Program-made: the position numbers and the translations under genes
Shown: positions 22,072 to 33,759 of the stretch, piece by piece
How the letters are laid out: the number at the start of each line of letters is the position of its first letter
Position numbering within the stretch: the first letter of the stretch is position 1
Origin: Komagataeibacter sp. FNDCF1
GTDB lineage: Bacteria > Pseudomonadota > Alphaproteobacteria > Acetobacterales > Acetobacteraceae
Assembly: GCF_021295335.1 (NCBI RefSeq)
Contig: NZ_JAIWOT010000001.1
Location: 3,309,501-3,373,500 of the forward strand
DNA length: 64,000 nucleotides
Reading direction: 5' to 3'
Notes under the pieces: generated by a model
Told to the model about the DNA's origin: nothing
What the model saw: only the letters and a program-made list of their open reading frames with translations
The model's database searches: none

Positions 22072-22082
22072 AAGGCATGGGT

Positions 22083-23471
22083 ATGCGCAATGGCGCGGTA
22101 CGCGGCCTGCTGCTGGTGCGCGGCGGCACGGTGGTGACGGCGCAGGCGTCGCTGCGGGTGGATGTGCTGTGTGGCGGCGTGGGTGAGATACTGACCACCG
22201 GCCCGGACCTGGAAGTGCCCATGGGCTGCACGGTGGTTGATGCCGGTGGCCTGCTGGTCCTGCCCGGCGGGGTGGACCCGCACACGGCCATCGGCGCGGA
22301 TGAATCCGGTTTTGAACGGACGGTGGAGGCGCTGGCGGGCGGGACCACGACCATACTCGATACCATGCATCCCCATGGCGGCACGCTGGGGGCAGCGTGG
22401 CGGGCATGGTGGCATGCGGCGGAGCGGTCCCATGTGGATGTGGGGCTGCATATGGCGTTGCCCGACGCGGGTGCCCGCGTGCTGCGCGACATGGAAGTGC
22501 TTGTGGAACGCCGGGGGGTGAATGCCTTCCATCTATCCATGGCGGATGGACTGTCCGACCGCGCCATCCTGCAACTGGCTGGTCACGCCGCCGGATGCGG
22601 CGCGCTGTGCCGGATCGAGGCCCAGAACGCACAGGCCGTGGCCTATCTGCGTGAAGAACTGGCGCAGGCGGGCATTACGGGGGCCGAGTCCTGTCTGCTT
22701 GCCGCCCCCCCGGCGGTCGAGGCAGAAGCCACCCATCGCGCCATCATGCTGGCGGGGCTGCAGGGGGCCCCGGTCCATATCGGTCCGGTTTCCACCACGG
22801 GGGCGATTACCTGCCTCTCCGCAGCCCGGCTGGATGGCCAGCGGGTCGCAGCGCATGTGCTGGCCCCACATCTGGTGGTGGATGAAGCCGTATATGACGT
22901 GGGTGGAGACGCACCATCCGGCTCCTGTATCACCGATCCCTGCATGACCCTGCCGCCCTTCCGTGATGGCACGCACCGCCGTGCGCTATGGGGTGCGCTG
23001 GCGGCGGGGACCATCGGCATGGTGGCCAGCGGTTTCCGCCCCCCGGGCCAGCCGGGCAACGGGCCGGCTGGCGGGCTGGCCGGGCGCATGCGCGCAGTGT
23101 GGCAGCATGGAGTGCAGGCAGGGCTGCTGAGCGCCGGGGAATTTGTGGCCGTGACCGCACAGGCAGCGGCGTGTGCCTTCAACATCTATCCGCGCAAGGG
23201 CGCCATCATGCCCGGTGCCGATGCCGATCTGGTCCTGTGGGACCCCGATGCGCTGGAAACCTGCCCCCATGGTCCCGATACGCCCTATGGCGGGATTACG
23301 CTTGGGGGGCGTGCGGTGCATGTGATCCGCGGTGGGGTTACGGTATGGAAGGACAACCGGCTGTATGGCGATGGCCGCGGGGTCCATGTGCCCTGTCCGG
23401 CCTTCCGCTCCGGCCTGTCGGCAGACATGCGTCAGGCGGCACGGCTGTCCGTGCGTCAGGACGGCATGTAG
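22083..23471 (+). CDS. Dihydropyrimidinase/hydantoinase-fold protein lacking the metal ligands (probable pseudoenzyme)
   Basis: A 462-residue amidohydrolase-superfamily protein most like D-hydantoinase and dihydropyrimidinase in layout: a beta-sandwich N-terminus, LVLPGGVDPHT, AGGTTTILD and a C-terminal GADADLVLWDPD. The zinc ligands are largely gone. The HxH pair reads HTA (H67, A69), the carboxylated Lys position is H150, the HAEN His segment is IEAQN (179-182), and the S-D-H segment near 316 is ASGFRP. It cannot hold the usual binuclear centre. The frame is intact. AAAGG 7 bases upstream picks the ATG at 22083 over 22077. It heads the ureide catabolic region and starts 11 bases after ppx. 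Confidence 0.75.
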   Translation: MRNGAVRGLLLVRGGTVVTAQASLRVDVLCGGVGEILTTGPDLEVPMGCTVVDAGGLLVLPGGVDPHTAIGADESGFERTVEALAGGTTTILDTMHPHGGTLGAAWRAWWHAAERSHVDVGLHMALPDAGARVLRDMEVLVERRGVNAFHLSMADGLSDRAILQLAGHAAGCGALCRIEAQNAQAVAYLREELAQAGITGAESCLLAAPPAVEAEATHRAIMLAGLQGAPVHIGPVSTTGAITCLSAARLDGQRVAAHVLAPHLVVDEAVYDVGGDAPSGSCITDPCMTLPPFRDGTHRRALWGALAAGTIGMVASGFRPPGQPGNGPAGGLAGRMRAVWQHGVQAGLLSAGEFVAVTAQAAACAFNIYPRKGAIMPGADADLVLWDPDALETCPHGPDTPYGGITLGGRAVHVIRGGVTVWKDNRLYGDGRGVHVPCPAFRSGLSADMRQAARLSVRQDGM

Positions 23472-23662
23472 TGCATGTGTCGTGCGACGGGGCCATGGCC
23501 GGTTCCGCCTGTTCCTGACCGCAAGGCTTTCCATCATGTGGCGTGGACCGGCCGGACCATCATGTGCCGCCATGGTCGCAGCACTGGTGGCGGCGGCAGT
23601 CGTGATCCGTTTGTGGTAACCGGCACAGGCGGATGGTGGTGAAAATGGGGGAACACGACCCG
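23472..23662 (+). other. Intergenic gap between the pseudo-hydantoinase and the lysR gene
   Basis: The gap is GC-rich with no clear terminator. The only short frame of note is a 27-codon hydrophobic one at 23536-23619, which I do not call a gene. The lysR promoter is presumably here. Confidence 0.3.
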
Positions 23663-24616
23663 ATGAATGATCCGCTTTCCCGCATCCCGCGCATGATGCG
23701 GCTGCATGCGCGCGGCATTTCATATTTCAATGCCGTGCGGGAATGTCGTTCCATACGGGAAGCGGCGCGCAGGCTCAATGTCGCCCCCTCCGCCCTGACC
23801 CGGCAACTGGCGCAGATGGAGGCCGAGATCGGTGCGCCCCTGTTCGACCGCCTGCCCGAAGGCATGATGCTGACGGAGGCAGGCGCCATCATGGCCCGGC
23901 ACGTCGTGACCGTGATGCAGGATGCCGCCCGGACGGAGGAACAGATCAGCGCCCTGTCGGGCCGGCATGCGGGGCGTCTGCGCATCATGGCGGTGGAAGG
24001 CGTTGCGGGGCAGTTGCTGCCAGCGCTGCTGGGCCGGATCATCACGGCCTTTCCGGCCATTGACCTGTATGTGGAGGTGGGATCGCCCGCAACCATCGTC
24101 TCCGCCCTGCGGGAAGGGCAGGTGGATCTGGGCATTGCCTTTTCCCTGGCGCCCCATCCCGAACTGCGGCGGGTGGCGGTGGCGCATTTTCCCATCGGCG
24201 CCGTGATGCGGCCGGACCACCCGCTGGCGGCGCTGCGCACGGTTACGGCAGAGGACTGCGTGGCCTGCCGCCTGATCCTGCCCACGCGTACGCTCTCGCT
24301 CTACCGGGTGATGGAACCCATGCTGCGCCCGTGGCAGGACCGACTGGACGTGGTGCTGCGCACCGGCTCGATCGAACTGACCAACCGCATGGTGCAGGCG
24401 GGTGCAGGGCTTGCCTTCCAGTCACCGCTGGCCCTTGGTACCCGGCCCGGTGGCGGGCTGTGTCACGTACCGCTGCGCGATACCCGCGCCGTGACCGACC
24501 TGGGGGCCTATGTGCGCGATTCCCGCTGGCTGCCGCCATTGCTGGAAACGGTGATCGGGGAACTGCGCGCGGAATTGCGCCGCATGCAGGACATGGGCGG
24601 GGAGCCGATAGCCTGA
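23663..24616 (+). CDS. LysR-family transcriptional regulator of the ureide cluster
   Basis: A 317-residue LTTR. The HTH reads SIREAARRLNVAPSALTRQL and continues into the linker helix MEAEIGAPLFDR. The effector domain begins GRLRIMAVEGVAG and carries two Rossmann-like subdomains. GGGGGAA at 23647 favours this ATG; in-frame ATGs at 23633 and 23645 would add a few residues. It is oriented with the catabolic genes, not divergent as is usual for LTTRs. A 19-base palindrome just downstream of its stop may be its operator. The inducer is probably an ureide such as allantoin or oxalurate (inference). Confidence 0.85.
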   Translation: MNDPLSRIPRMMRLHARGISYFNAVRECRSIREAARRLNVAPSALTRQLAQMEAEIGAPLFDRLPEGMMLTEAGAIMARHVVTVMQDAARTEEQISALSGRHAGRLRIMAVEGVAGQLLPALLGRIITAFPAIDLYVEVGSPATIVSALREGQVDLGIAFSLAPHPELRRVAVAHFPIGAVMRPDHPLAALRTVTAEDCVACRLILPTRTLSLYRVMEPMLRPWQDRLDVVLRTGSIELTNRMVQAGAGLAFQSPLALGTRPGGGLCHVPLRDTRAVTDLGAYVRDSRWLPPLLETVIGELRAELRRMQDMGGEPIA

Positions 24617-24640
24617 TCCGCCTGTTGCGTTAAGGGCAAC

Positions 24641-24659
24641 ACAATGGTCGGATCATTGT
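24641..24659. promoter_or_regulatory. Near-perfect 19-base palindrome, candidate operator upstream of the flavoprotein gene
   Basis: ACAATGGTCGGATCATTGT is symmetrical around base 24650 with a single mismatched pair. It sits in the 117-base gap between lysR and the flavoprotein gene, 75 bases before that start. This is a plausible LTTR site, although the T-N11-A core is inverted (A-N11-T). Confidence 0.5.
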
Positions 24660-24733
24660 AATGGACGGAACACCTGCCGGTTTGATTAGATCGGCCTGTC
24701 ATGACGGGGCCGGGGTGAAACCGGCATCGGCAC

Positions 24734-26221
24734 ATGGTGGAAAACACGGACGGGAACCCGCAGATGGATACCAACACGCAGCCCGGAACCGGGGCCGCCT
24801 GCGGGCTTGCAGCGCTGGATGCGGCGGTGCGCCGGGACATGGAAATCATCCGCTATCCACACAGGGAATGGGTCCCCGCAATGGAGCGCCACGGCCAGCG
24901 CGTGCTGGATGTGGCCATTATCGGCGCGGGACAGGGCGGGCTGGCCACGGCTTTCGCGCTCAGGCGCAGCAGCATCACCAATATCCGTATCTTTGACCGG
25001 GCATCCAGGGGCGATGAAGGGCCGTGGATGACGTTTGCGCGCATGCTCACGCTGCGCACGCCCAAATACGTGACCGGACCCGACCTGGGCGTGCCCTCGC
25101 TCACGCCGCGCTCGTGGTACGAAGCGCAGTTCGGCGCGCAGGCATGGGAAAGGCTGGACAAGATCCCGCGCGCACAGTGGCAGGCCTATCTGGACTGGTA
25201 TCGGGACATCCTTAACCTGCCGGTTGCCAATGACCATGATTTCCAGGGCGTGACGTGGGAGGACGGCCTGCTGCGCCTGACCTTTGGCCGGCCTGATGGC
25301 GCGACCTACGTGCAGTATGCGCGCAAGCTGGTGCTGGCCACCGGCATTGAAGGCTGCGGGACATGGAACGTGCCCGATTTCATCCGCACCGGCCTGCCGC
25401 GCGACCGGTATGCCCATACATCGGAAGCGATTGATTTCGCGGCGCTGAAGGGCCGGCGCATCGGTGTGCTGGGGGCGGGGGCCTCGGCGTTTGATAACGC
25501 GGCCACGGCGCTGGAAGCGGGGGCCGGCAGTGTCACGCTGTGCCTGCGGCGCAGGGAAATCCCGGCCGTCAACCCCTATCGCTGGATGGAGAATACCGGC
25601 TTCCTCGCCTATTATCCTGCCCTGTCCGATGACCTGCGCTGGCGCTTCATGCGCCGGATATTCGAACTGAACCAGCCGCCGCCGCAGGATACGTTCTGGC
25701 GCTGCCGCAGGCATCCCACCTTCTCCTACCGAACCGGCTGCCCATGGACGGCGGTGCGTATGGATGGTGACAGGATCGTGGTGGAGTCGCTCACGGGGGA
25801 AATGCATTTTGACTTCCTGATCATCGGCACGGGTTTTGCAATCGATCTCGCGCGCAGGCCGGAGACACAGTCATTTGCCGCCTCCGTCGCACTGTGGGGG
25901 GATCGGCATACCGCGCCGGTGGGGTCGGAAAGTGCGGTGCTGGAACGCTACCCCTATCTTGGGCTCAACTATCAGTTCCTGCCGCGCGACAGGGATGATC
26001 CGCTGGCGCCGATGCTGGCGAACATTCACAATTTCACGTTTTCGGCCACGCCCAGCATGGGGCTTTCGGGCGCGTCGATCAGTGGCATGCGCTTTGGCGT
26101 GGAGCGTCTGGCCCACGGGCTGGGGCGCGACCTGTATGTTGCGGACGGCCAGAAACATCTGGAAAGTCTGCTGGCCTATGATGTGCGGGAACTGGTCAGT
26201 CTCGATCCACCTGTTGCATGA
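24734..26221 (+). CDS. FMO-like FAD/NAD(P)-dependent flavoprotein of unknown substrate
   Basis: A 495-residue two-dinucleotide-binding flavoprotein. The FAD site is IIGAGQGGLATAF (GAGQGG at 64-69) and the NADPH-site motif is VLGAGASAFDNAA near residue 245. An ATG-like segment FLIIGTGFAIDLA lies near 360. The order and spacing match class B flavin monooxygenases, but I do not see a clean FxGxxxHxxxY signature. It lies directly upstream of the AtzG/AtzE-like pair in a purine-catabolic cluster with no recognisable uricase, so it may oxidise a ureide or purine (inference). It is not related to the HpxO type of urate hydroxylase. The start could be 24764. Confidence 0.7.
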   Translation: MVENTDGNPQMDTNTQPGTGAACGLAALDAAVRRDMEIIRYPHREWVPAMERHGQRVLDVAIIGAGQGGLATAFALRRSSITNIRIFDRASRGDEGPWMTFARMLTLRTPKYVTGPDLGVPSLTPRSWYEAQFGAQAWERLDKIPRAQWQAYLDWYRDILNLPVANDHDFQGVTWEDGLLRLTFGRPDGATYVQYARKLVLATGIEGCGTWNVPDFIRTGLPRDRYAHTSEAIDFAALKGRRIGVLGAGASAFDNAATALEAGAGSVTLCLRRREIPAVNPYRWMENTGFLAYYPALSDDLRWRFMRRIFELNQPPPQDTFWRCRRHPTFSYRTGCPWTAVRMDGDRIVVESLTGEMHFDFLIIGTGFAIDLARRPETQSFAASVALWGDRHTAPVGSESAVLERYPYLGLNYQFLPRDRDDPLAPMLANIHNFTFSATPSMGLSGASISGMRFGVERLAHGLGRDLYVADGQKHLESLLAYDVRELVSLDPPVA

Positions 26222-26263
26222 TGCATCCCGGGTAGACTGATCCATTCGGGAGATAGTGAGTAG

Positions 26264-26497
26264 ATGAGCAGCGCTCCACGCCTTTCCCCTTCCGCACCGG
26301 TTACGGGCGCGGGCGGGCATGATGATCACAGGGTTCCCCCCGTGCCGGACATGGCGCGGCTTGTCGGGCTGACCATTCCGGCGGCATGCCTGCCCGATGT
26401 CGTGGCGAATGCCATGCTTTTGCAGGGTTATGCCGACCTGCTTGGCGGCTTCGCGCTGCCCGATGACTGTGAACCCGCCTATGGGTACACGCCATGA
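26264..26497 (+). CDS. AtzG/HpxX-like small amidase-partner protein (DUF4089 type)
   Basis: A 77-residue protein. After a disordered Pro/Ala-rich N-terminus it has a helical core, ACLPDVVANAMLLQGYADLL, ending in a short acidic tail. AtzG proteins bind the AtzE amidase as obligate partners, and the HpxX homologue occupies the same place in the Klebsiella hpxWXYZ cluster. Its stop overlaps the amidase start by 4 bases (ATGA), so tight coupling is expected. The assignment leans on context as much as sequence. Confidence 0.7.
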   Translation: MSSAPRLSPSAPVTGAGGHDDHRVPPVPDMARLVGLTIPAACLPDVVANAMLLQGYADLLGGFALPDDCEPAYGYTP

Positions 26498-27867
26498 ACG
26501 CCGATGTGCAGGCCATGGGGGCGGCCTTTGCCATTGCGGCCGATGTCAGGGCACGCCGCCGGACCGCCGTCTCGGTCGTGACCGCCGTGATCGCGGATAT
26601 CGAGGCCCGTGACACCCGCTTCAACAGTGTGACCCGCATCCTGGGCCCCGCCGCCGTGGCGCAGGCGGAGGAAGTGGATAAAGCAGTAGCGGCAGGCCGC
26701 GACCCCGGGCCACTGGCGGGCGTGCCCTTTGGCGTGAAGGACCTGTTTGACGTATGCGGCGAAGTGACTACCGCGGGGTCCATCGTGCTGCGTGACAACC
26801 TGCCCGCAACGCAGGATGCAACCGTGGTGGCCCGCCTGCGCGCGGCGGGCGCCGTGCCGGTGGCCACGCTGAACATGGATGAATTCGCCTACGGTTTCTC
26901 AACCGAAAACGCGCATACCGGCACGACCTGCAACCCGCATGATACCGCGCGCCTGGCAGGCGGGTCATCGGGCGGGTCGGCGGCGTCGGTCGCGGCGGGG
27001 CTGCTGCCGTTCACGCTGGGGTCGGACACCAACGGCTCTATCCGCATCCCGTCCTCGCTGTGCGGGGTATGGGGGCTCAAGCCCACCTATGGGCAGGTAC
27101 CGCTGCGTGGTGTCTATCCGTTCGTGGCAAGTCTTGACGTGGCGGGACCAATGGCGGCCACACTTGCGGACCTGCAGGCGGTTTACGCCATCATGGCGGG
27201 CAGGACGATCGACGCGCTGCCCGATGTGGCGGGCGTACGTGTCGCGCGTCTTGGCGGCTGGTTTGCCAGCAACATCAGCTCCGAAATAACGGCAGGGATC
27301 GATGCGGTCATGGCGCATCTGGGTAGCGGGCAGGTTGTCGAACTGCCTGAAGTCGCCCGCGCCCGCGCCTCCGCCTTCCTGATTAGCGCGGCGGAGGGGG
27401 GCAACCTGCACCTGCCGCGCCTGCGCCGGCGGTCCATGCAGTATGATCCGGCAACGCGCGCTCGGCTCATGGCCGGCGCCATGCTGCCGGCCTCCACCTT
27501 CGTGCAGGCGCAGCGCTTCCGGCGCTGGTTCCGCGCGCAGGTGCACGAAGCCCTTAGCCAGGCCGATGTGCTGGTGGCGCCGACCACGGTCGGTGTTGCG
27601 CCGCGTATCGACCAGCCGACCATCATGGTGGATGGCCGGAGTGTACCGGCACGGGCCAATCTGGGCATCTTTACCCAGCCCGTCAGCCTTGCGGGCCTGC
27701 CTGTTCTGGCGGCCCCGCTGGCGGTGGACGGACTGCCGCTTGGCATCCAGCTGATTGGCGCGCCGGACGCGGAAGCCAGCCTGTTTGCCGTAGCGGCCGA
27801 ACTGCAGCGCGCGGGCCTGCTGCGCTGCCAGCCACTGGATGCAGGCTACGCCCGAAAGGACAGCTGA
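26494..27867 (+). CDS. Amidase-signature hydrolase, AtzE/HpxY-like
   Basis: A 457-residue amidase-signature enzyme. The Ser-cisSer-Lys triad is visible as K82 (GVKDLFD), S158 (GGSSGGSAAS) and S182 (SDTNGSIRI). AtzE itself hydrolyses carboxybiuret in cyanurate breakdown. The HpxY branch is linked to uric acid catabolism, probably acting on a ureide-derived amide. The small protein upstream should be its subunit. It overlaps the following Ntn hydrolase gene by one base (TGATG). The exact substrate is unknown. Confidence 0.85.
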   Translation: MNADVQAMGAAFAIAADVRARRRTAVSVVTAVIADIEARDTRFNSVTRILGPAAVAQAEEVDKAVAAGRDPGPLAGVPFGVKDLFDVCGEVTTAGSIVLRDNLPATQDATVVARLRAAGAVPVATLNMDEFAYGFSTENAHTGTTCNPHDTARLAGGSSGGSAASVAAGLLPFTLGSDTNGSIRIPSSLCGVWGLKPTYGQVPLRGVYPFVASLDVAGPMAATLADLQAVYAIMAGRTIDALPDVAGVRVARLGGWFASNISSEITAGIDAVMAHLGSGQVVELPEVARARASAFLISAAEGGNLHLPRLRRRSMQYDPATRARLMAGAMLPASTFVQAQRFRRWFRAQVHEALSQADVLVAPTTVGVAPRIDQPTIMVDGRSVPARANLGIFTQPVSLAGLPVLAAPLAVDGLPLGIQLIGAPDAEASLFAVAAELQRAGLLRCQPLDAGYARKDS

Positions 27868-29459
27868 TGCTCAATACGCCGCGTTCATGCCGGGGGATGG
27901 TCACATCCCCCCATCATCTGGCCAGTCAGGCCGGGCTGGATGTGCTCAAGGCCGGTGGCACCGCGCTGGAGGCCGCCGTCGCTACGGCGGCAGCACTTGC
28001 GGTCGTCTACCCGCACATGACCGGCATTGGCGGTGATGCCTTCTGGCTGACCATGTGGCCCGATGGCCGTGTGGAAACGATCGACGCCTGCGGGGCGGCG
28101 GCGGCCCGGGCCGATGCGGGCTTCTACCATGCGGCGGGGCTGGACGCCATTCCGTGGCGGGGCCCGCTTGCGGCCAATACGGTGGCGGGCACCGTGTCCG
28201 GATGGGACATGGCGCTGGGGTGGAGCCATGCCATGGCGCCGGGCCTGCCGCTGGGGCGCGTGTTGCGTGACGCGTTGTACTACGCCGAACAGGGTGCGCC
28301 CGTTACCGCAGGTGCCGCCAGACTGACAGCGCAGAAGGTCGGCGAACTGCGGGACGTGCCGGGGTTTGCCGCCCAGTTCATGCCCGGTGGCAGACTGCCG
28401 GAGGCGGGCGATATCCTGCACAATCCCCGCCTTGCCACTACGCTGCGCCATCTGGTGGATGACGGGCTGGACAGTTTCTACCGTGGCAGGGTGGCGCGCG
28501 AACTCGCTGCCGACCTGACCGATCTGGGCAGCCCGCTTACGCTGGCGGACCTGCAGGCGCATCGTGCCAGCCACCAGCCCGCACTGCATGCGCGTATCCA
28601 CGGGGCGGACCTGTACAACATGGCGCCGCCCACGCAGGGCGTGGCCTCGCTGCTGATCCTTGCCCTGTTCGACCGGCTGCGCGCGGGACAGGCGGATGAT
28701 TTCGATTACCTGCACGGCCTGGTGGAAGCGACCAAGCAGGCCTTCCGCTACCGTGATACCCATGTGGGTGATCCCGCCTACATGACCGTGCGGGCGCAGG
28801 ATATCCTAAATGACCACAAGGCGCTGGACCGCATGGCCGCCGCCATCAACCCCGACAGGGCAGCCCCCTGGCCATGGCCGTCACAGGTGGGGGATACGGT
28901 CTGGCTGGGCGTGATCGATTCCGACGGGCTGGCCGTGAGCATGATCCAGAGCCTGTATTTCGAATATGGATCGGGCATCGTGCTGCCGCGTACCGGTGTG
29001 GTCTGGCAGAACCGGGGTTCCAGCTTCGGCCTTGATGCGCAGGGCTGGAACGGCCTGCGACCGGGGCGCAAGCCCTTCCATACCCTCAATCCCGCCGGGG
29101 CCCGGCTGGATGACGGCCGCACCATGGTCTATGGCACCATGGGGGGAGAAGGACAGCCGCAGACGCAGGCGGCGCTTTTTACCCGCTATGCCCGTTATGG
29201 TGTGCCGCTGCAGCAGGCGGTCACCGCGCCACGCTGGCTGCTGGGCCGTACATGGGGTGAAGCAAGTGTCAGCCTGAAATACGAGGACCGTTTCGACCCC
29301 GAGGTGATTGCCCGCATGCAGGCGGCGGGCCACCAGATGGAACGGGTTGCGGCATTTTCGTCCATGATGGGCCACGCGGGCGCACTGGTGCGCCATCCCT
29401 CCGGCCTGCTGGAGGGGGCGGCCGACCCGCGCAGTGATGGATGCGTGGCGGCATGGTAG
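27867..29459 (+). CDS. HpxW-like Ntn hydrolase (gamma-glutamyltranspeptidase family), probable oxamate amidohydrolase
   Basis: A 530-residue self-cleaving precursor. The nucleophilic Thr is T344 in GDTVWLGVID, where autoproteolysis should give a large N-terminal and a small C-terminal subunit. GSGIVLPRTGVVWQNRG follows as in the family. It has no signal peptide, unlike periplasmic GGT. HpxW of Klebsiella is an oxamate amidohydrolase of this family and sits beside HpxX and HpxY, matching the order here. That makes oxamate to oxalate plus ammonia the likely reaction. A cytoplasmic gamma-glutamyl hydrolase is the alternative. Confidence 0.8.
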   Translation: MLNTPRSCRGMVTSPHHLASQAGLDVLKAGGTALEAAVATAAALAVVYPHMTGIGGDAFWLTMWPDGRVETIDACGAAAARADAGFYHAAGLDAIPWRGPLAANTVAGTVSGWDMALGWSHAMAPGLPLGRVLRDALYYAEQGAPVTAGAARLTAQKVGELRDVPGFAAQFMPGGRLPEAGDILHNPRLATTLRHLVDDGLDSFYRGRVARELAADLTDLGSPLTLADLQAHRASHQPALHARIHGADLYNMAPPTQGVASLLILALFDRLRAGQADDFDYLHGLVEATKQAFRYRDTHVGDPAYMTVRAQDILNDHKALDRMAAAINPDRAAPWPWPSQVGDTVWLGVIDSDGLAVSMIQSLYFEYGSGIVLPRTGVVWQNRGSSFGLDAQGWNGLRPGRKPFHTLNPAGARLDDGRTMVYGTMGGEGQPQTQAALFTRYARYGVPLQQAVTAPRWLLGRTWGEASVSLKYEDRFDPEVIARMQAAGHQMERVAAFSSMMGHAGALVRHPSGLLEGAADPRSDGCVAAW

Positions 29460-30724
29460 CCACGATGGTGGCCATGGACACACCATCAGGCCAGCGCGCG
29501 GTGGCGCGTTGCACCGAACTGGGGCGCGCGCCGTATTCGGATATGGAAGGCGGGTTGTTCCGGCCCTATCTCGGCCCTGCCTACCGTGCGACGTGTAGCC
29601 GGCTGGTGGCATGGATGCATGACGCGGGCATGACCACGCGCATGGACGCGGCGGGCAACCTTGTTGCCCGGTATGAGGGACTGGCCCCCGATGCCCCGGT
29701 CGTGCTGCTCGGCTCGCATATCGACAGCGTGCGTGATGGTGGCTTTTACGATGGCATGCTGGGCGTGATCCTGGGCATCGAGACGGTGGCCCATTTTGCC
29801 CGTACGGGCAGACGCTTCCGCTTCGCGCTGGAAGTCATCGGGTTTGGAGATGAGGAGGGATCGCGCTTTCCAACCGGCATGCTGACCTCGCACGCGGTGG
29901 CGGGACTCCTGCGCGAACCCGACCCGGCCATGCCTGACTGGGCCGGGACCGAGACGCTGGCGGGCGCGCTGGAAGGCTTCGGGCTGGATACAGGGCGGAT
30001 GCATACCGCATCGCGCAGGGATGACCCGGTCATGGCTTATGTCGAGGCCCATATAGAACAGGGTCCGGCGCTGGAAGCACGGGACCGCCCGCTGGGCGTG
30101 GTCAGCGCCATCGCCGCCCAGCAGCGCTACAGCATGACCCTGCACGGCATGGCGGGCCATGCGGGCACGGTGGCCATGGCGCTGCGCCGTGACGCGCTGG
30201 CGGCGGCGGCCGAGATCGTTCTTGCGGCCGAGCGGATCGGGCGCGCGGGGGCGGACGGGCTGGTGGCCACGGTTGGCGCGCTGGACGTGGCGCCGGGGGC
30301 GGCCAACGTGGTGCCGGGGACGGTGGTGATGAGCCTTGATGTCCGCGCCGGTACCAATGCGGCGCGTGACGGGGCGGTGGCCGCCATACTGGATGTGGCC
30401 CGCCAGACCTGCCGCACGCGCGGGCTGGAAATCGACATTACCCTCAAGCTGGACCTTGATGCCACGCCATGTGACGGGCGGCTGACCGCGCTCATGGAAC
30501 GCGCGGTGGACAGCGTGACCGGCCTGCCCGCCCCCCTGCTGGTCAGCGGGGCGGGGCATGATGCGATGATCATGGCGCATCTGGCCCCGGTTTCCATGCT
30601 GTTCATCCGCTGTGCCGGAGGGATCAGCCACAACCCCGCCGAATCCGTGACCGGGGCGGATGCGGATGTCGCGCTGCGTGCCCTGATTGCCTTTGTCGGA
30701 TTTTTGGAAAGACATCCTGGATGA
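29453..30724 (+). CDS. Zn-dependent hydantoinase/carbamoylase family amidohydrolase, probable allantoate amidohydrolase
   Basis: A 423-residue M20-related metal enzyme. Binuclear-site residues appear in order: His in GSHIDSVRDGG, Asp in FYDGMLG, Glu pair in DEEGSRF, His in EAHIEQGP and His in GGISHNPAE. The lid domain contains HGMAGHAGT. The family covers N-carbamoyl-amino-acid hydrolases, beta-ureidopropionase and allantoate amidohydrolase (AllC/HpxK). The PuuE and aminotransferase genes downstream make allantoate to ureidoglycine the best assignment. The ATG at 29453 overlaps the upstream stop; an ATG at 29441 is also in frame. Confidence 0.85.
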   Translation: MVATMVAMDTPSGQRAVARCTELGRAPYSDMEGGLFRPYLGPAYRATCSRLVAWMHDAGMTTRMDAAGNLVARYEGLAPDAPVVLLGSHIDSVRDGGFYDGMLGVILGIETVAHFARTGRRFRFALEVIGFGDEEGSRFPTGMLTSHAVAGLLREPDPAMPDWAGTETLAGALEGFGLDTGRMHTASRRDDPVMAYVEAHIEQGPALEARDRPLGVVSAIAAQQRYSMTLHGMAGHAGTVAMALRRDALAAAAEIVLAAERIGRAGADGLVATVGALDVAPGAANVVPGTVVMSLDVRAGTNAARDGAVAAILDVARQTCRTRGLEIDITLKLDLDATPCDGRLTALMERAVDSVTGLPAPLLVSGAGHDAMIMAHLAPVSMLFIRCAGGISHNPAESVTGADADVALRALIAFVGFLERHPG

Positions 30725-31950
30725 CACAGCCCTTCCATGGCCAGATCAACCCTCCCGCCCGGCTGCTGATGGGACCGGGGCCGGTCAATGTCCACCCGCG
30801 CGTGCTGCGCGCCATGGCAGCCGACATGCTGGGGCAGTTCGACCCCGAAATGACGGACTACATGAACCAGACGATGGACCTTTACCGTCAGGTTTTCATG
30901 ACCGCAAACCGCTGGACCATGCTGGTCGATGGCACGGCGCGCGCGGGTATCGAGGCGGCCCTCGTCTCGCTGGTCGAACCGGGGATGAAACTGCTGATTG
31001 TGCGCGCGGGCCGCTTTGGCCTGCTGCTGTCGGAAATCGCGGCCCGCATCGGGGCCGAAATCGCAACACTGGACATTCCGTGGGGGGAAGTGGCCACGCT
31101 GGAGCAGATCGAGGCGGCGATCAGGACCCATCGGCCGCAGGTGCTGGCATGCATCCATGGCGATACCTCCACCACCATGGCCCAGCCGCTGGATGGCCTG
31201 GGCGCGCTGTGCCGCCAGTACGATGTGCTGTCCTATGTCGATGCCACGGCCACGCTGGGCGGCATGCCGGTTGCGACCGACTGCTGGGGGGTGGATGTGG
31301 TCAGCGGTGGCCTGCAGAAATGCATGGGCGGGCCGCCGGGTTCATCGCCCATCACCATTTCCGACCGGGCGGCTGCGCATATCTTCGCCCGCCGCCATGT
31401 GGAAGCCGGCATCCGTGGCAGCGATACGGCGGATGGCACGCGCCTGCGCATTGCGTCGAACTATCTCGATCTGGCCATGATCATGGATTACTGGTCCGAA
31501 AGGCGGCTCAACCACCATACCGAGGCGACAAGCATGCTGTACGCCGCGCGCGAGGCGGCGCGCGTGATGCTGGAAGAAGGGCTGGATGCCCGCTTCGCCC
31601 GCCATGCCGCTGCTTCGAAAGCCATGGGGGCGGGCCTGCGCGCCATGGGGCTGGAACTGTTTGGCAGCGACATGCACCGCATGACCAACGTGACGGGTGT
31701 GTACATTCCCCAGGGCATTGATGGCGAGCGCGTGCGCGCCCGCATGCGTGAGGATTTCGAGATCGAGATCGGCTCCGCCTTCGGCCCGCTGCAGGGCAGG
31801 ATCTGGCGTATCGGTGCCATGGGCTACAATGCCGAGAAGCACAAGGTGCTGCTTACGCTGGGCGCACTGGAAGCGGTACTGCGCGCCGAAGGCTACGGTT
31901 TTACCGCCGGTGCCGGTGTTGATGCTGCTCTCGCCACCTATAACGCCTGA
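30721..31950 (+). CDS. pucG: (S)-ureidoglycine-glyoxylate aminotransferase (class V)
   Basis: A 409-residue PLP enzyme of the alanine-glyoxylate aminotransferase fold. The Schiff-base lysine is K200 in GGLQKCMGGPPG, and MGPGPVNVHPRV is the usual N-terminal motif. In purine catabolism the PucG/HpxJ branch transfers nitrogen from ureidoglycine to glyoxylate, giving glycine and oxalurate. The placement right after allantoate amidohydrolase (4-base overlap) supports this over serine- or alanine-glyoxylate activity. Confidence 0.82.
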   Translation: MTQPFHGQINPPARLLMGPGPVNVHPRVLRAMAADMLGQFDPEMTDYMNQTMDLYRQVFMTANRWTMLVDGTARAGIEAALVSLVEPGMKLLIVRAGRFGLLLSEIAARIGAEIATLDIPWGEVATLEQIEAAIRTHRPQVLACIHGDTSTTMAQPLDGLGALCRQYDVLSYVDATATLGGMPVATDCWGVDVVSGGLQKCMGGPPGSSPITISDRAAAHIFARRHVEAGIRGSDTADGTRLRIASNYLDLAMIMDYWSERRLNHHTEATSMLYAAREAARVMLEEGLDARFARHAAASKAMGAGLRAMGLELFGSDMHRMTNVTGVYIPQGIDGERVRARMREDFEIEIGSAFGPLQGRIWRIGAMGYNAEKHKVLLTLGALEAVLRAEGYGFTAGAGVDAALATYNA

Positions 31951-31970
31951 TAACCGGAGAGCACGCCAGT

Positions 31971-32882
31971 ATGCCTGAAGCACAAGCCTACCCGCGTGAT
32001 CTTGTGGGATACGGGCGTAATCCGCCCGATGCGAAATGGCCCGGCGGGGCGCGCATCGCCGTTCAGTTCGTGATCAATTATGAGGAGGGGGCCGAGAATT
32101 CGGTCCTGCACGGTGATCGCGGGTCAGAGGCGTTCCTGTCCGAAATGGTGGGCGCGCACTCCATTCCCGGCGCGCGCGCCATTGCAATGGAAAGCCTGTA
32201 TGAATATGGCGCGCGCGCCGGATTCTGGCGGCTGCACCGCATCTTTACCCGGCGCCAGCAGCCACTTACGGTATTTGGCGTGGCGGCGGCCATGGCGCGG
32301 AATCCGGAAGCGGTGGCTGCGATGAAGGAAGCCGGGTGGGAGATCGCATCCCATGGGCTGCGCTGGATCGACTACCAGCATGTGCCCGAAGCGGTGGAAC
32401 GGGCGCATATACACGAATGTATCGCACTGCATGCCAGACTGACCGGATCACGCCCGCTGGGCTGGTACCAGGGCCGCACCAGCCCCAATACCGCCCGTCT
32501 GGTCGCGGAAGAAGGCGGCTTTGTATACGACGCGGATTCCTATGCCGATGACCTGCCGTATTACGACCGCAGCCATGGCCGCGCGCAGTTGGTCGTGCCC
32601 TATACGCTGGATGTGAACGACATGCGCTTCGTGGCCCTGAACGGCTTTACCGAAGGGGAGCAGTTCTTCAACTACCTGCGCGACACCTTTGACGAACTGT
32701 ATGAGGAGGGGGCGGACAAACCGCGCATGATGTCGGTCGGCCTGCACTGCCGTGTTGCGGGCCGTCCGGGCCGGGCGCGGACGGTGGCGCGTTTTCTGGA
32801 TTACATTGCCACGCGTGAGAAGGTATGGGTCGCGACACGGCTTGATATCGCGCGCCACTGGCTGAAGGTGCATCCGGCATGA
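31971..32882 (+). CDS. puuE: Allantoinase, PuuE polysaccharide-deacetylase type
   Basis: A 303-residue NodB-fold protein. It opens with the PuuE hallmark YPRDLVGYGRNPPDAKWPGGARIAVQ region and contains ENSVLHGD, SHGLRWIDYQ and the C-terminal catalytic-loop sequence GLHCRVAGRPGRA. PuuE hydrolyses allantoin to allantoate and is unrelated to the amidohydrolase-type allantoinase. Its presence means the hydantoinase-like gene at 22083 is not needed for this step. It overlaps uraD by 4 bases. Confidence 0.93.
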   Translation: MPEAQAYPRDLVGYGRNPPDAKWPGGARIAVQFVINYEEGAENSVLHGDRGSEAFLSEMVGAHSIPGARAIAMESLYEYGARAGFWRLHRIFTRRQQPLTVFGVAAAMARNPEAVAAMKEAGWEIASHGLRWIDYQHVPEAVERAHIHECIALHARLTGSRPLGWYQGRTSPNTARLVAEEGGFVYDADSYADDLPYYDRSHGRAQLVVPYTLDVNDMRFVALNGFTEGEQFFNYLRDTFDELYEEGADKPRMMSVGLHCRVAGRPGRARTVARFLDYIATREKVWVATRLDIARHWLKVHPA

Positions 32883-33406
32883 AAAACGTGATGGACCGGG
32901 TCGATGCAATGTCCGCGGTGCGGTTTGTCGAACTGTTCGGCCCGATATACGAGCACTCGCCCTGGATTGCCCGGCGCGCACACGCCCATGCGCCCTTTGC
33001 GGACCGCGATGCCATGCTCGCTGCCATGCGTCATGAACTGGACCGGGCGACGGAGGCGGAAAAGATGGCGCTGATCCGCGCCCATCCCGAACTGGCGCAG
33101 CGCATGGGCGTGGACCCGACGCTCACATCGGCTTCGGCTGCCGAGCAGGCGTGCGCCGGGCTGGACCGCCTGACACCGGACGAATTCGCGACCTTCCGCG
33201 CCCTGAATGATGCCTATACCGCCAAATTCGGCATTCCGTTCATCATCTGCGTGCGGCAGTCGGACAAGGAGGGCATTCTGAACGGGCTGTACGCCCGGCT
33301 GGAAAACACGTTCGAGGCCGAACAGCAGGCCGCCCTGCGTGAAATCAACAGGATTGCCGCCCTGCGGCTGGCCGATGTGCTGGCACGGCTGGAGCAGGAA
33401 CCATGA
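32879..33406 (+). CDS. uraD: OHCU decarboxylase
   Basis: A 175-residue all-helical enzyme that converts OHCU to (S)-allantoin. Family marks are a catalytic His in HPELAQRMG, LNDAYTAKFGIPFIICVR and the C-terminal helix EINRIAALRLADVL. It overlaps both neighbours by 4 bases, so puuE-uraD-uraH are translated as a unit. Confidence 0.94.
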   Translation: MKNVMDRVDAMSAVRFVELFGPIYEHSPWIARRAHAHAPFADRDAMLAAMRHELDRATEAEKMALIRAHPELAQRMGVDPTLTSASAAEQACAGLDRLTPDEFATFRALNDAYTAKFGIPFIICVRQSDKEGILNGLYARLENTFEAEQQAALREINRIAALRLADVLARLEQEP

Positions 33407-33759
33407 GCACCCTTTCCACCCACGTTCTCGACCTTGTTTCAGGCAGGCCCGCCGCAGGCATGGCGATCAGCCTGTGGGCGGGGCAGGGCTGCCTGTTCCG
33501 TGGCGTGACCAATGCGGATGGCCGCTGCCCGGAACTGGGCCAGCAGACCGGGGACATGCAGGCCGGTTCCTACCGTCTGGAATTCAGCGTGGCGGATTAT
33601 TTCCGCAGCCGCGCTGTCGCGCTGTCGGACCCGCCATTCCTTGACGTGGTGCCCATCGCCTTTGGCATGGCGCGGGGGGCACCGGGGGAAAAAGGCGGGC
33701 ATTACCACGTGCCGCTTCTGGTCTCGCCCTACGGGTTTTCGACCTATCGCGGCAGTTGA
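33403..33759 (+). CDS. uraH: 5-hydroxyisourate hydrolase (transthyretin-related)
   Basis: A 118-residue beta-sandwich enzyme that opens the 5-hydroxyisourate ring to OHCU. The N-terminal STHVLDLVSGRPA carries the active-site His, HYHVPLLVSPYGFSTY follows, and it ends in the signature YRGS. It has no signal peptide. It is the last gene of the purine-catabolic operon. Confidence 0.95.
   Translation: MSTLSTHVLDLVSGRPAAGMAISLWAGQGCLFRGVTNADGRCPELGQQTGDMQAGSYRLEFSVADYFRSRAVALSDPPFLDVVPIAFGMARGAPGEKGGHYHVPLLVSPYGFSTYRGS

Follow-up and report, generated by a model that had tools for sequence, protein, structure and literature searches.

Here, we describe a cluster of eleven co-oriented genes in Komagataeibacter sp. 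FNDCF1 that is very probably a urate catabolic operon, freeing the nitrogen of urate by a route that runs from an HpyO-type hydroxylation step through the amidase AtzG/AtzE and the amidohydrolase HpxW. The cluster occupies positions 22077–33759 on the plus strand of a 64,000-nucleotide stretch of a 3.74 Mb genome (RefSeq assembly GCF_021295335.1, contig NZ_JAIWOT010000001.1, positions 3,309,501 to 3,373,500; hereafter the window). An initial annotation, made from the letters alone, had set out these eleven genes from hydantoinase to uraH, all of which we confirmed with their start and stop codons, and had pointed to the lack of a urate oxidase and of an enzyme for the oxalurate-to-oxamate step, suggesting that these roles may fall to a flavoprotein and the AtzG/AtzE pair. 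We would infer the same, and both "missing" enzymes are probably present within the operon. At the level of gene content and family membership established here, the operon appears to join an HPX-type downstream route to an HpyO-type uricase, a combination that seems to recur in related acetic acid bacteria, Xanthomonas and sphingomonads. Its features are as follows.

22077–23471, plus strand: hydantoinase/dihydropyrimidinase-like putative pseudoenzyme (TIGR02033, 255 bits, under the 393 cut-off).
23576–23662, plus strand: 3'-terminal xdhC remnant (blastn against K. xylinus, L046).
23633–24616, plus strand: LysR-type regulator (PF00126, PF03466).
24734–26221, plus strand: candidate HpyO-type FAD-dependent urate hydroxylase (Xanthomonas context, tree, residues E286/Q314/S450, predicted fold).
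26264–26497, plus strand: AtzG/HpxX small subunit (PF13318, 39.7 bits, cut-off 24).
26494–27867, plus strand: AtzE/HpxY amidase, proposed oxalurate amidohydrolase (TIGR02715, 567 bits, cut-off 425.75).
27867–29459, plus strand: predicted HpxW oxamate amidohydrolase (best PDB matches 5hft chains A and B).
29441–30724, plus strand: allantoate amidohydrolase, AllC type (NF006775, 560 bits, cut-off 479).
30721–31950, plus strand: PucG-type ureidoglycine-glyoxylate aminotransferase (PDB 3nnk, 519 bits; 3isl, PucG, 424 bits).
31971–32882, plus strand: PuuE allantoinase (TIGR03212, 541 bits, cut-off 424.6).
32879–33406, plus strand: UraD 2-oxo-4-hydroxy-4-carboxy-5-ureidoimidazoline (OHCU) decarboxylase (TIGR03164, 185 bits, cut-off 96.25).
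33403–33759, plus strand: UraH hydroxyisourate hydrolase (TIGR02962, 110 bits, cut-off 87.45; C-terminus YRGS).

The genes are tightly packed, although the earlier description of most of them as overlapping by 1–8 bases was somewhat too strong: the ten junctions comprise five overlaps of 1–4 bases, one of 19 (a value that hinges on which allC start is taken) and gaps of 161, 117, 42 and 20. The lysR gene probably starts at 23663 rather than 23633, as judged from its counterpart in Komagataeibacter xylinus, which begins MNDPLSR. Because the order from lysR to uraH is preserved in K. xylinus (L046) and Gluconacetobacter tumulisoli (L048), the arrangement is not a chance one. For the PucG-type protein, the next PDB match after 3nnk and 3isl is an alanine-glyoxylate aminotransferase at 300 bits.

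In the proposed route, the HpyO-type enzyme would convert urate to 5-hydroxyisourate using flavin adenine dinucleotide (FAD), reduced nicotinamide adenine dinucleotide or its phosphate (NAD(P)H) and oxygen; UraH and UraD would carry 5-hydroxyisourate to allantoin, PuuE would open allantoin to allantoate, and AllC would yield ureidoglycine from allantoate. PucG would then pass the amino group of ureidoglycine to an oxo acid, leaving oxalurate, from which AtzG/AtzE (HpxX/HpxY) would remove the terminal amide to give N-carboxyoxamate. Loss of CO2 from this product could be spontaneous or proceed via an unlinked AtzH/HpxZ-like protein, and HpxW would finally split oxamate into oxalate and ammonia. 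The gene names and the section from 5-hydroxyisourate to oxalurate, both already present in the initial annotation, hold up as inferred.

The suspicion that the ordinary enzymes for the two gaps are lacking was borne out genome-wide. Neither Uox nor PuuD was found in the rest of the genome (the search controls were positive in other genomes), no match in the genome exceeded the HpxO cut-off (best 207 bits against 500), and the genome search for the oxamate carbamoyltransferase subunit AllG came up empty, its E. coli control being positive; AllF and AllH were not searched. The HpxO-like matches L029 and L030 were rejected as uricases, 3-hydroxybenzoate 6-monooxygenase scoring higher, also under its cut-off.

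The flavoprotein carries the motifs GAGQGG and GAGAS, has no HpxO model among its family matches, and is 85% and 84% identical to its homologues in K. xylinus and Komagataeibacter saccharivorans. Its predicted structure (predicted local distance difference test score, pLDDT, of 90.9) resembles those of flavin N-hydroxylases, PvdA and SidA among them, with an ornithine-hydroxylase-like fold. Michiel et al. (2012, as relayed by PMC4562309) described HpyO, a Xanthomonas urate hydroxylase that depends on FAD and NAD(P)H. The Xanthomonas homologue of the window flavoprotein is 45% identical to it and is placed between uraD and uraH, and the two Xanthomonas loci found (L077, L083) share the order allC-pucG-puuE-atzH-uraD-flavoprotein-uraH with four sphingomonad loci (L090, L105, L113, L124). 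Flavoprotein genes near uraD or uraH appear repeatedly, in Acetobacteraceae, Xanthomonas, sphingomonads and Sporolactobacillus; in the window, the flavoprotein comes first in the enzyme run, which reaches uraD and uraH about 7 kb further downstream.

This association is mirrored in a tree of 105 flavoproteins, from which the loci L059, L069 and L109 were excluded for stops or short length. When rows were labelled urate-linked if uraD or uraH lay within 6 kb (30 of the 105, the window row being assigned by hand), a supported branch separated 57 rows, all 30 of these among them, from 48 rows that had none, with the window and Xanthomonas proteins on the same side. Under a wider label that accepted uraD or uraH at any distance within the locus (34 rows; locus lengths differ and some end at contig ends), the residues E286, Q314 and S450, chosen from the same alignment in which they were counted, occur jointly in 33 of 34 urate-linked rows versus 16 of 71 others. 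The single urate-linked row without them, L071, owes its label to a 30% uraH match about 5.5 kb beyond the gene, and the 16 others that carry them include nine Bacillota and one Komagataeibacter locus cut by a contig end.

Several points weigh against reading the operon as a urate route, and some of them concern this protein. An approximately unbiased (AU) test rejected the Acetobacteraceae-type and Xanthomonas-type proteins as a single clade (p 0.03, for a 46-row set that was defined after the tree had been seen and includes 12 Bacillota rows without a urate link). Because of this rejection, strict orthology with Xanthomonas HpyO is not supported; moreover, likeness to HpyO was judged via the Xanthomonas homologues and not HpyO's own sequence, and runs of N in the genome could hide genes from every genome search. 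The AU result leaves the window flavoprotein unjoined with the Xanthomonas clade, and some relatives with E286/Q314/S450, such as those of Martelella (L060) and Kaistia (L062), have neither uraD nor uraH in their loci. Both would suit a flavoprotein that hydroxylates some other N-heterocycle, in an operon that begins at 5-hydroxyisourate, allantoin or another ureide. We regard this as very improbable given the recurrence of uraD or uraH beside the gene in the four lineages named above. The window flavoprotein thus remains a well-supported fit to the HpyO type at the sequence level, and its context and relatives point to urate as the substrate.

The flavoprotein search also brought up loci of other kinds. 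Signature-bearing flavoproteins in Martelella (L060, 4635–11383), Kaistia (L062, 2166–11386) and a Hyphomicrobiales metagenome-assembled genome (L064, 6117–11413) are accompanied by a PuuE-like gene and an amidase of the PRK08310 type discussed below (family tested for L060 and L062 only) and lack uraD and uraH; these loci perhaps encode a related pathway for a different N-heterocycle. Bradyrhizobium-type loci (L070, L091, L115, L130, L132, L134) hold a more distant flavoprotein, with a hydantoinase that keeps its ligand residues about 3 kb off. The L091 record is titled Frankia sp. RB7, and its flavoprotein is nested within Bradyrhizobium-type sequences in the tree, which suggests that it is mislabelled or contaminated. 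In Acetobacter persici JCM 25330 (L059, 10001–11424) the flavoprotein gene is split in two pieces, possibly by a frameshift or an assembly error.

For the oxalurate step, AtzG/AtzE together with HpxW is the remaining candidate. AtzE, which exceeds its family cut-off and is adjoined by the AtzG partner gene, contains K82 and the motifs GGSSGG and SDTNGSI, and its best PDB match is 6c62, labelled "Biuret hydrolase", which we take to be AtzE itself. The small subunit is assigned through Pfam PF13318, phmmer having returned no PDB relative for it. HpxW matches chains A and B of 5hft (labelled "Gamma-glutamyltranspeptidase", presumably Klebsiella HpxW) at 301 and 287 bits, ahead of 2nlz (249), 2i3o (222) and 2e0w (170 bits), and its T344 aligns with residue 1 of 5hft chain B, the Thr nucleophile. 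The genome also has an AtzH/HpxZ-like gene, about 11 kb beyond the window and about 41 kb downstream of the cluster (L176, 11239–11499); it scores 128.6 bits over PF11533 positions 38–124, with the remainder within a run of N.

Published work gives these families related roles. AtzEG deaminates 1-carboxybiuret and AtzH is the likely decarboxylase of the product (PMC6219798), and it is from this pair of reactions that we draw, by analogy, the regiochemistry proposed for the AtzE step. The same source noted in 2018 that ggt-atzG-atzE-atzH clusters occur near allantoate amidohydrolase in Enterobacteriaceae. HpxW is cited as an oxamate amidohydrolase in PMC5270733, and PMC12625717, which cites a 2023 review on enterobacterial purine catabolism, names HpxY "oxalurate amidohydrolase" in the text and oxamate carbamoyltransferase in a legend. 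Klebsiella pneumoniae is stated to lack AllFGH (PMC11326118).

The distribution of these genes was followed in 398 genomes drawn evenly, as a single sample, from the phylum (thresholds of E ≤ 1e-85 for pucG and E ≤ 1e-120 for AtzE), in which pucG occurs in 25 genomes, AtzE in 36, AtzH over cut-off in 42 and AllG over cut-off in 14. AtzE is present in 14 of the 25 pucG genomes versus 22 of the 373 without pucG. AtzH accompanies AtzE in 34 of 36 genomes, including all 14 that also have pucG; in 12 of those 14, AtzE lies in the same retrieved stretch as hpxW. AllFGH was rejected as the general partner of PucG, with AllG in just 5 of the 25 pucG genomes, four of which have AtzE as well.

The 11 pucG genomes without AtzE all carry an amidase of the family PRK08310 (NF006169) over its 391-bit cut-off (lowest score 393.5), and all 25 pucG genomes have either AtzE (14) or PRK08310 (11). 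AtzH is found in a single PRK08310-type pucG genome, G193. In eight of the 11 the PRK08310 gene stands beside hpxW near pucG; in G046 and G354 it has pucG and allC nearby, hpxW not being seen, and in G193 it lies on a different contig from pucG, together with atzH and hpxW. There (L206, 9990–16357) AtzH directly follows the PRK08310 amidase, with hpxW nearby, the sole mixed arrangement in the 25 pucG genomes. The family is present in Bacillus and Sporolactobacillus flavoprotein loci too (L114, L075, L117, L125).

Because every sampled pucG genome has AtzE or PRK08310, a second oxalurate hydrolase is suggested: oxalurate hydrolysis might be shared between two interchangeable amidase-signature enzymes, AtzG/AtzE with AtzH, or PRK08310 mostly without AtzH, a proposal that we judge evenly balanced. 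Its second half, that PRK08310 is an unrecognised oxalurate amidohydrolase, could equally prove right or wrong; such an enzyme would perhaps cleave off carbamate directly and hence need no decarboxylase. The name PRK08310 was not met in the literature searched on this subject. PRK08310 was sought only in stretches around pucG (in G193, also around AtzH and AllG), and genomes with AtzE may carry it as well, which bears on the two-hydrolase proposal. In favour of AtzG/AtzE for the oxalurate step, flavoprotein, AtzE-like amidase (at least 48% identical), HpxW and pucG stand together in 12 of the 80 loci of the flavoprotein search. Five of the 20 loci of that search with pucG (at least 40% identical) have neither amidase in the available stretch (L065, L077, L087, L118, L123), which counts against two hydrolases; the L087 stretch ends at pucG, and that of L123 is the full 21 kb.

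On the debit side of the urate-to-oxalate reading, the AtzH-like gene lies outside the operon and is only partly readable beside its run of N, no oxalyl-CoA decarboxylase in the genome exceeded its cut-off (best 177 of 739 bits), and 22 of the 36 AtzE genomes lack pucG. The last count, the five pucG loci without either amidase and the deamination of 1-carboxybiuret by the characterised AtzE/AtzG (PMC6219798) would all accord with an AtzG/AtzE that acts on a carboxybiuret-like compound or another ureide, leaving oxalurate to an unlinked enzyme. This is unlikely, given that HpxW depends on a supply of oxamate, that the genome search gave no AllG, that AtzE and hpxW so often share a stretch in pucG genomes, and that one of the two amidases is present in every one of the sampled pucG genomes. 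Oxalurate is kept here as the probable substrate of AtzG/AtzE, as its context and relatives suggest.

The hydantoinase at the head of the cluster looks catalytically dead from its sequence, as the initial annotation had it. Residues that we take to be metal ligands are altered at all five inspected motifs in the window and in two other Komagataeibacter, L046 (2630–3979) and L047 (from 2659), with the first His of HxH still there in the window and L046 proteins, and are retained in Gluconacetobacter (L048) and Acidomonas (L054). The gene evolves faster than four neighbour genes, at a ratio of nonsynonymous to synonymous substitution rates (dN/dS) of 0.22–0.26, a ratio more in line with a pseudoenzyme that is being maintained than with debris. 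A role as a working pathway enzyme was rejected on the loss of the ligand residues, and the protein is probably not a catalyst of the urate pathway.

Next to this gene the window has suffered a deletion. K. xylinus, K. saccharivorans and G. tumulisoli carry xdhA, xdhB and xdhC between the hydantoinase gene and lysR; in the window xdhABC is gone, leaving a scar at 23453–23662 in which about 90 bases from the end of xdhC still precede lysR. By blastn, window 23576–23754 corresponds to L046 8806–8985 (the xdhC end into lysR) at 77%, and 23373–23452 aligns with the end of the hydantoinase gene. Of three MoCoBD matches in the genome, two places match K. xylinus XdhB at ≤26% identity and two lie near stretches 41–44% identical to XdhA; these places were rejected as xanthine dehydrogenase and taken as other molybdenum hydroxylases. 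Nor did the rest of the genome yield a convincing xanthine dehydrogenase, which also counts against the proposed reading, and purines above urate would therefore not feed the operon; for the same reason we expect that the strain should use urate or ureides, not hypoxanthine or xanthine. The xdhC remnant and the missing dehydrogenase, along with the dead hydantoinase, could instead mark an operon in decay, in a strain where urate use may be lost. That is quite improbable, since the other reading frames are intact and dN/dS against two congeners is 0.08–0.19 for the four genes compared (flavoprotein, atzE, hpxW and lysR).

The cluster puts a predicted route from urate to oxalate, with a uricase of the HpyO type, among the acetic acid bacteria. 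The cluster had been put forward as the best candidate for an undescribed variant pathway, a claim that cannot stand because its parts are known or already proposed, namely HpyO (PMC4562309), the ggt-atzG-atzE-atzH clusters (PMC6219798) and hpxY (PMC12625717); it is a new example of a known route, not a new pathway. Interest now centres on how the oxalurate step works biochemically and on PRK08310 as an alternative. The latter yields a testable rule, that PucG genomes making oxalurate carry AtzGE with AtzH or a PRK08310 amidase, and if true it would assign a substrate to a family that NCBIfam calls only "amidase".

Among known systems, the Klebsiella HPX pathway, whose gene names we take HpxWXYZ to be, has HpxW, HpxX/AtzG, HpxY/AtzE, allantoate amidohydrolase and a transaminase in common with the window; it differs in that the uricase of the window would be of the HpyO and not the HpxO type, and that HpxZ/AtzH lies about 41 kb downstream, outside the operon. 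The E. coli ALL pathway (PMC11326118) likewise turns oxalurate into oxamate, by carbamoyl transfer through AllFGH, whereas AllG was not found in the genome of the window. With AtzG-AtzE-AtzH of Pseudomonas sp. ADP (PMC6219798) the window shares the families of a two-subunit amidase and a decarboxylase, which serve cyanuric acid breakdown there and stand in a context of urate breakdown here. Like HpyO, whose Xanthomonas homologues lie between uraD and uraH, the window flavoprotein appears to be a flavin hydroxylase from outside the HpxO family; in contrast to it, the window protein falls within an Acetobacteraceae clade not joined directly to the Xanthomonas clade in the tree, and it heads its enzyme run.

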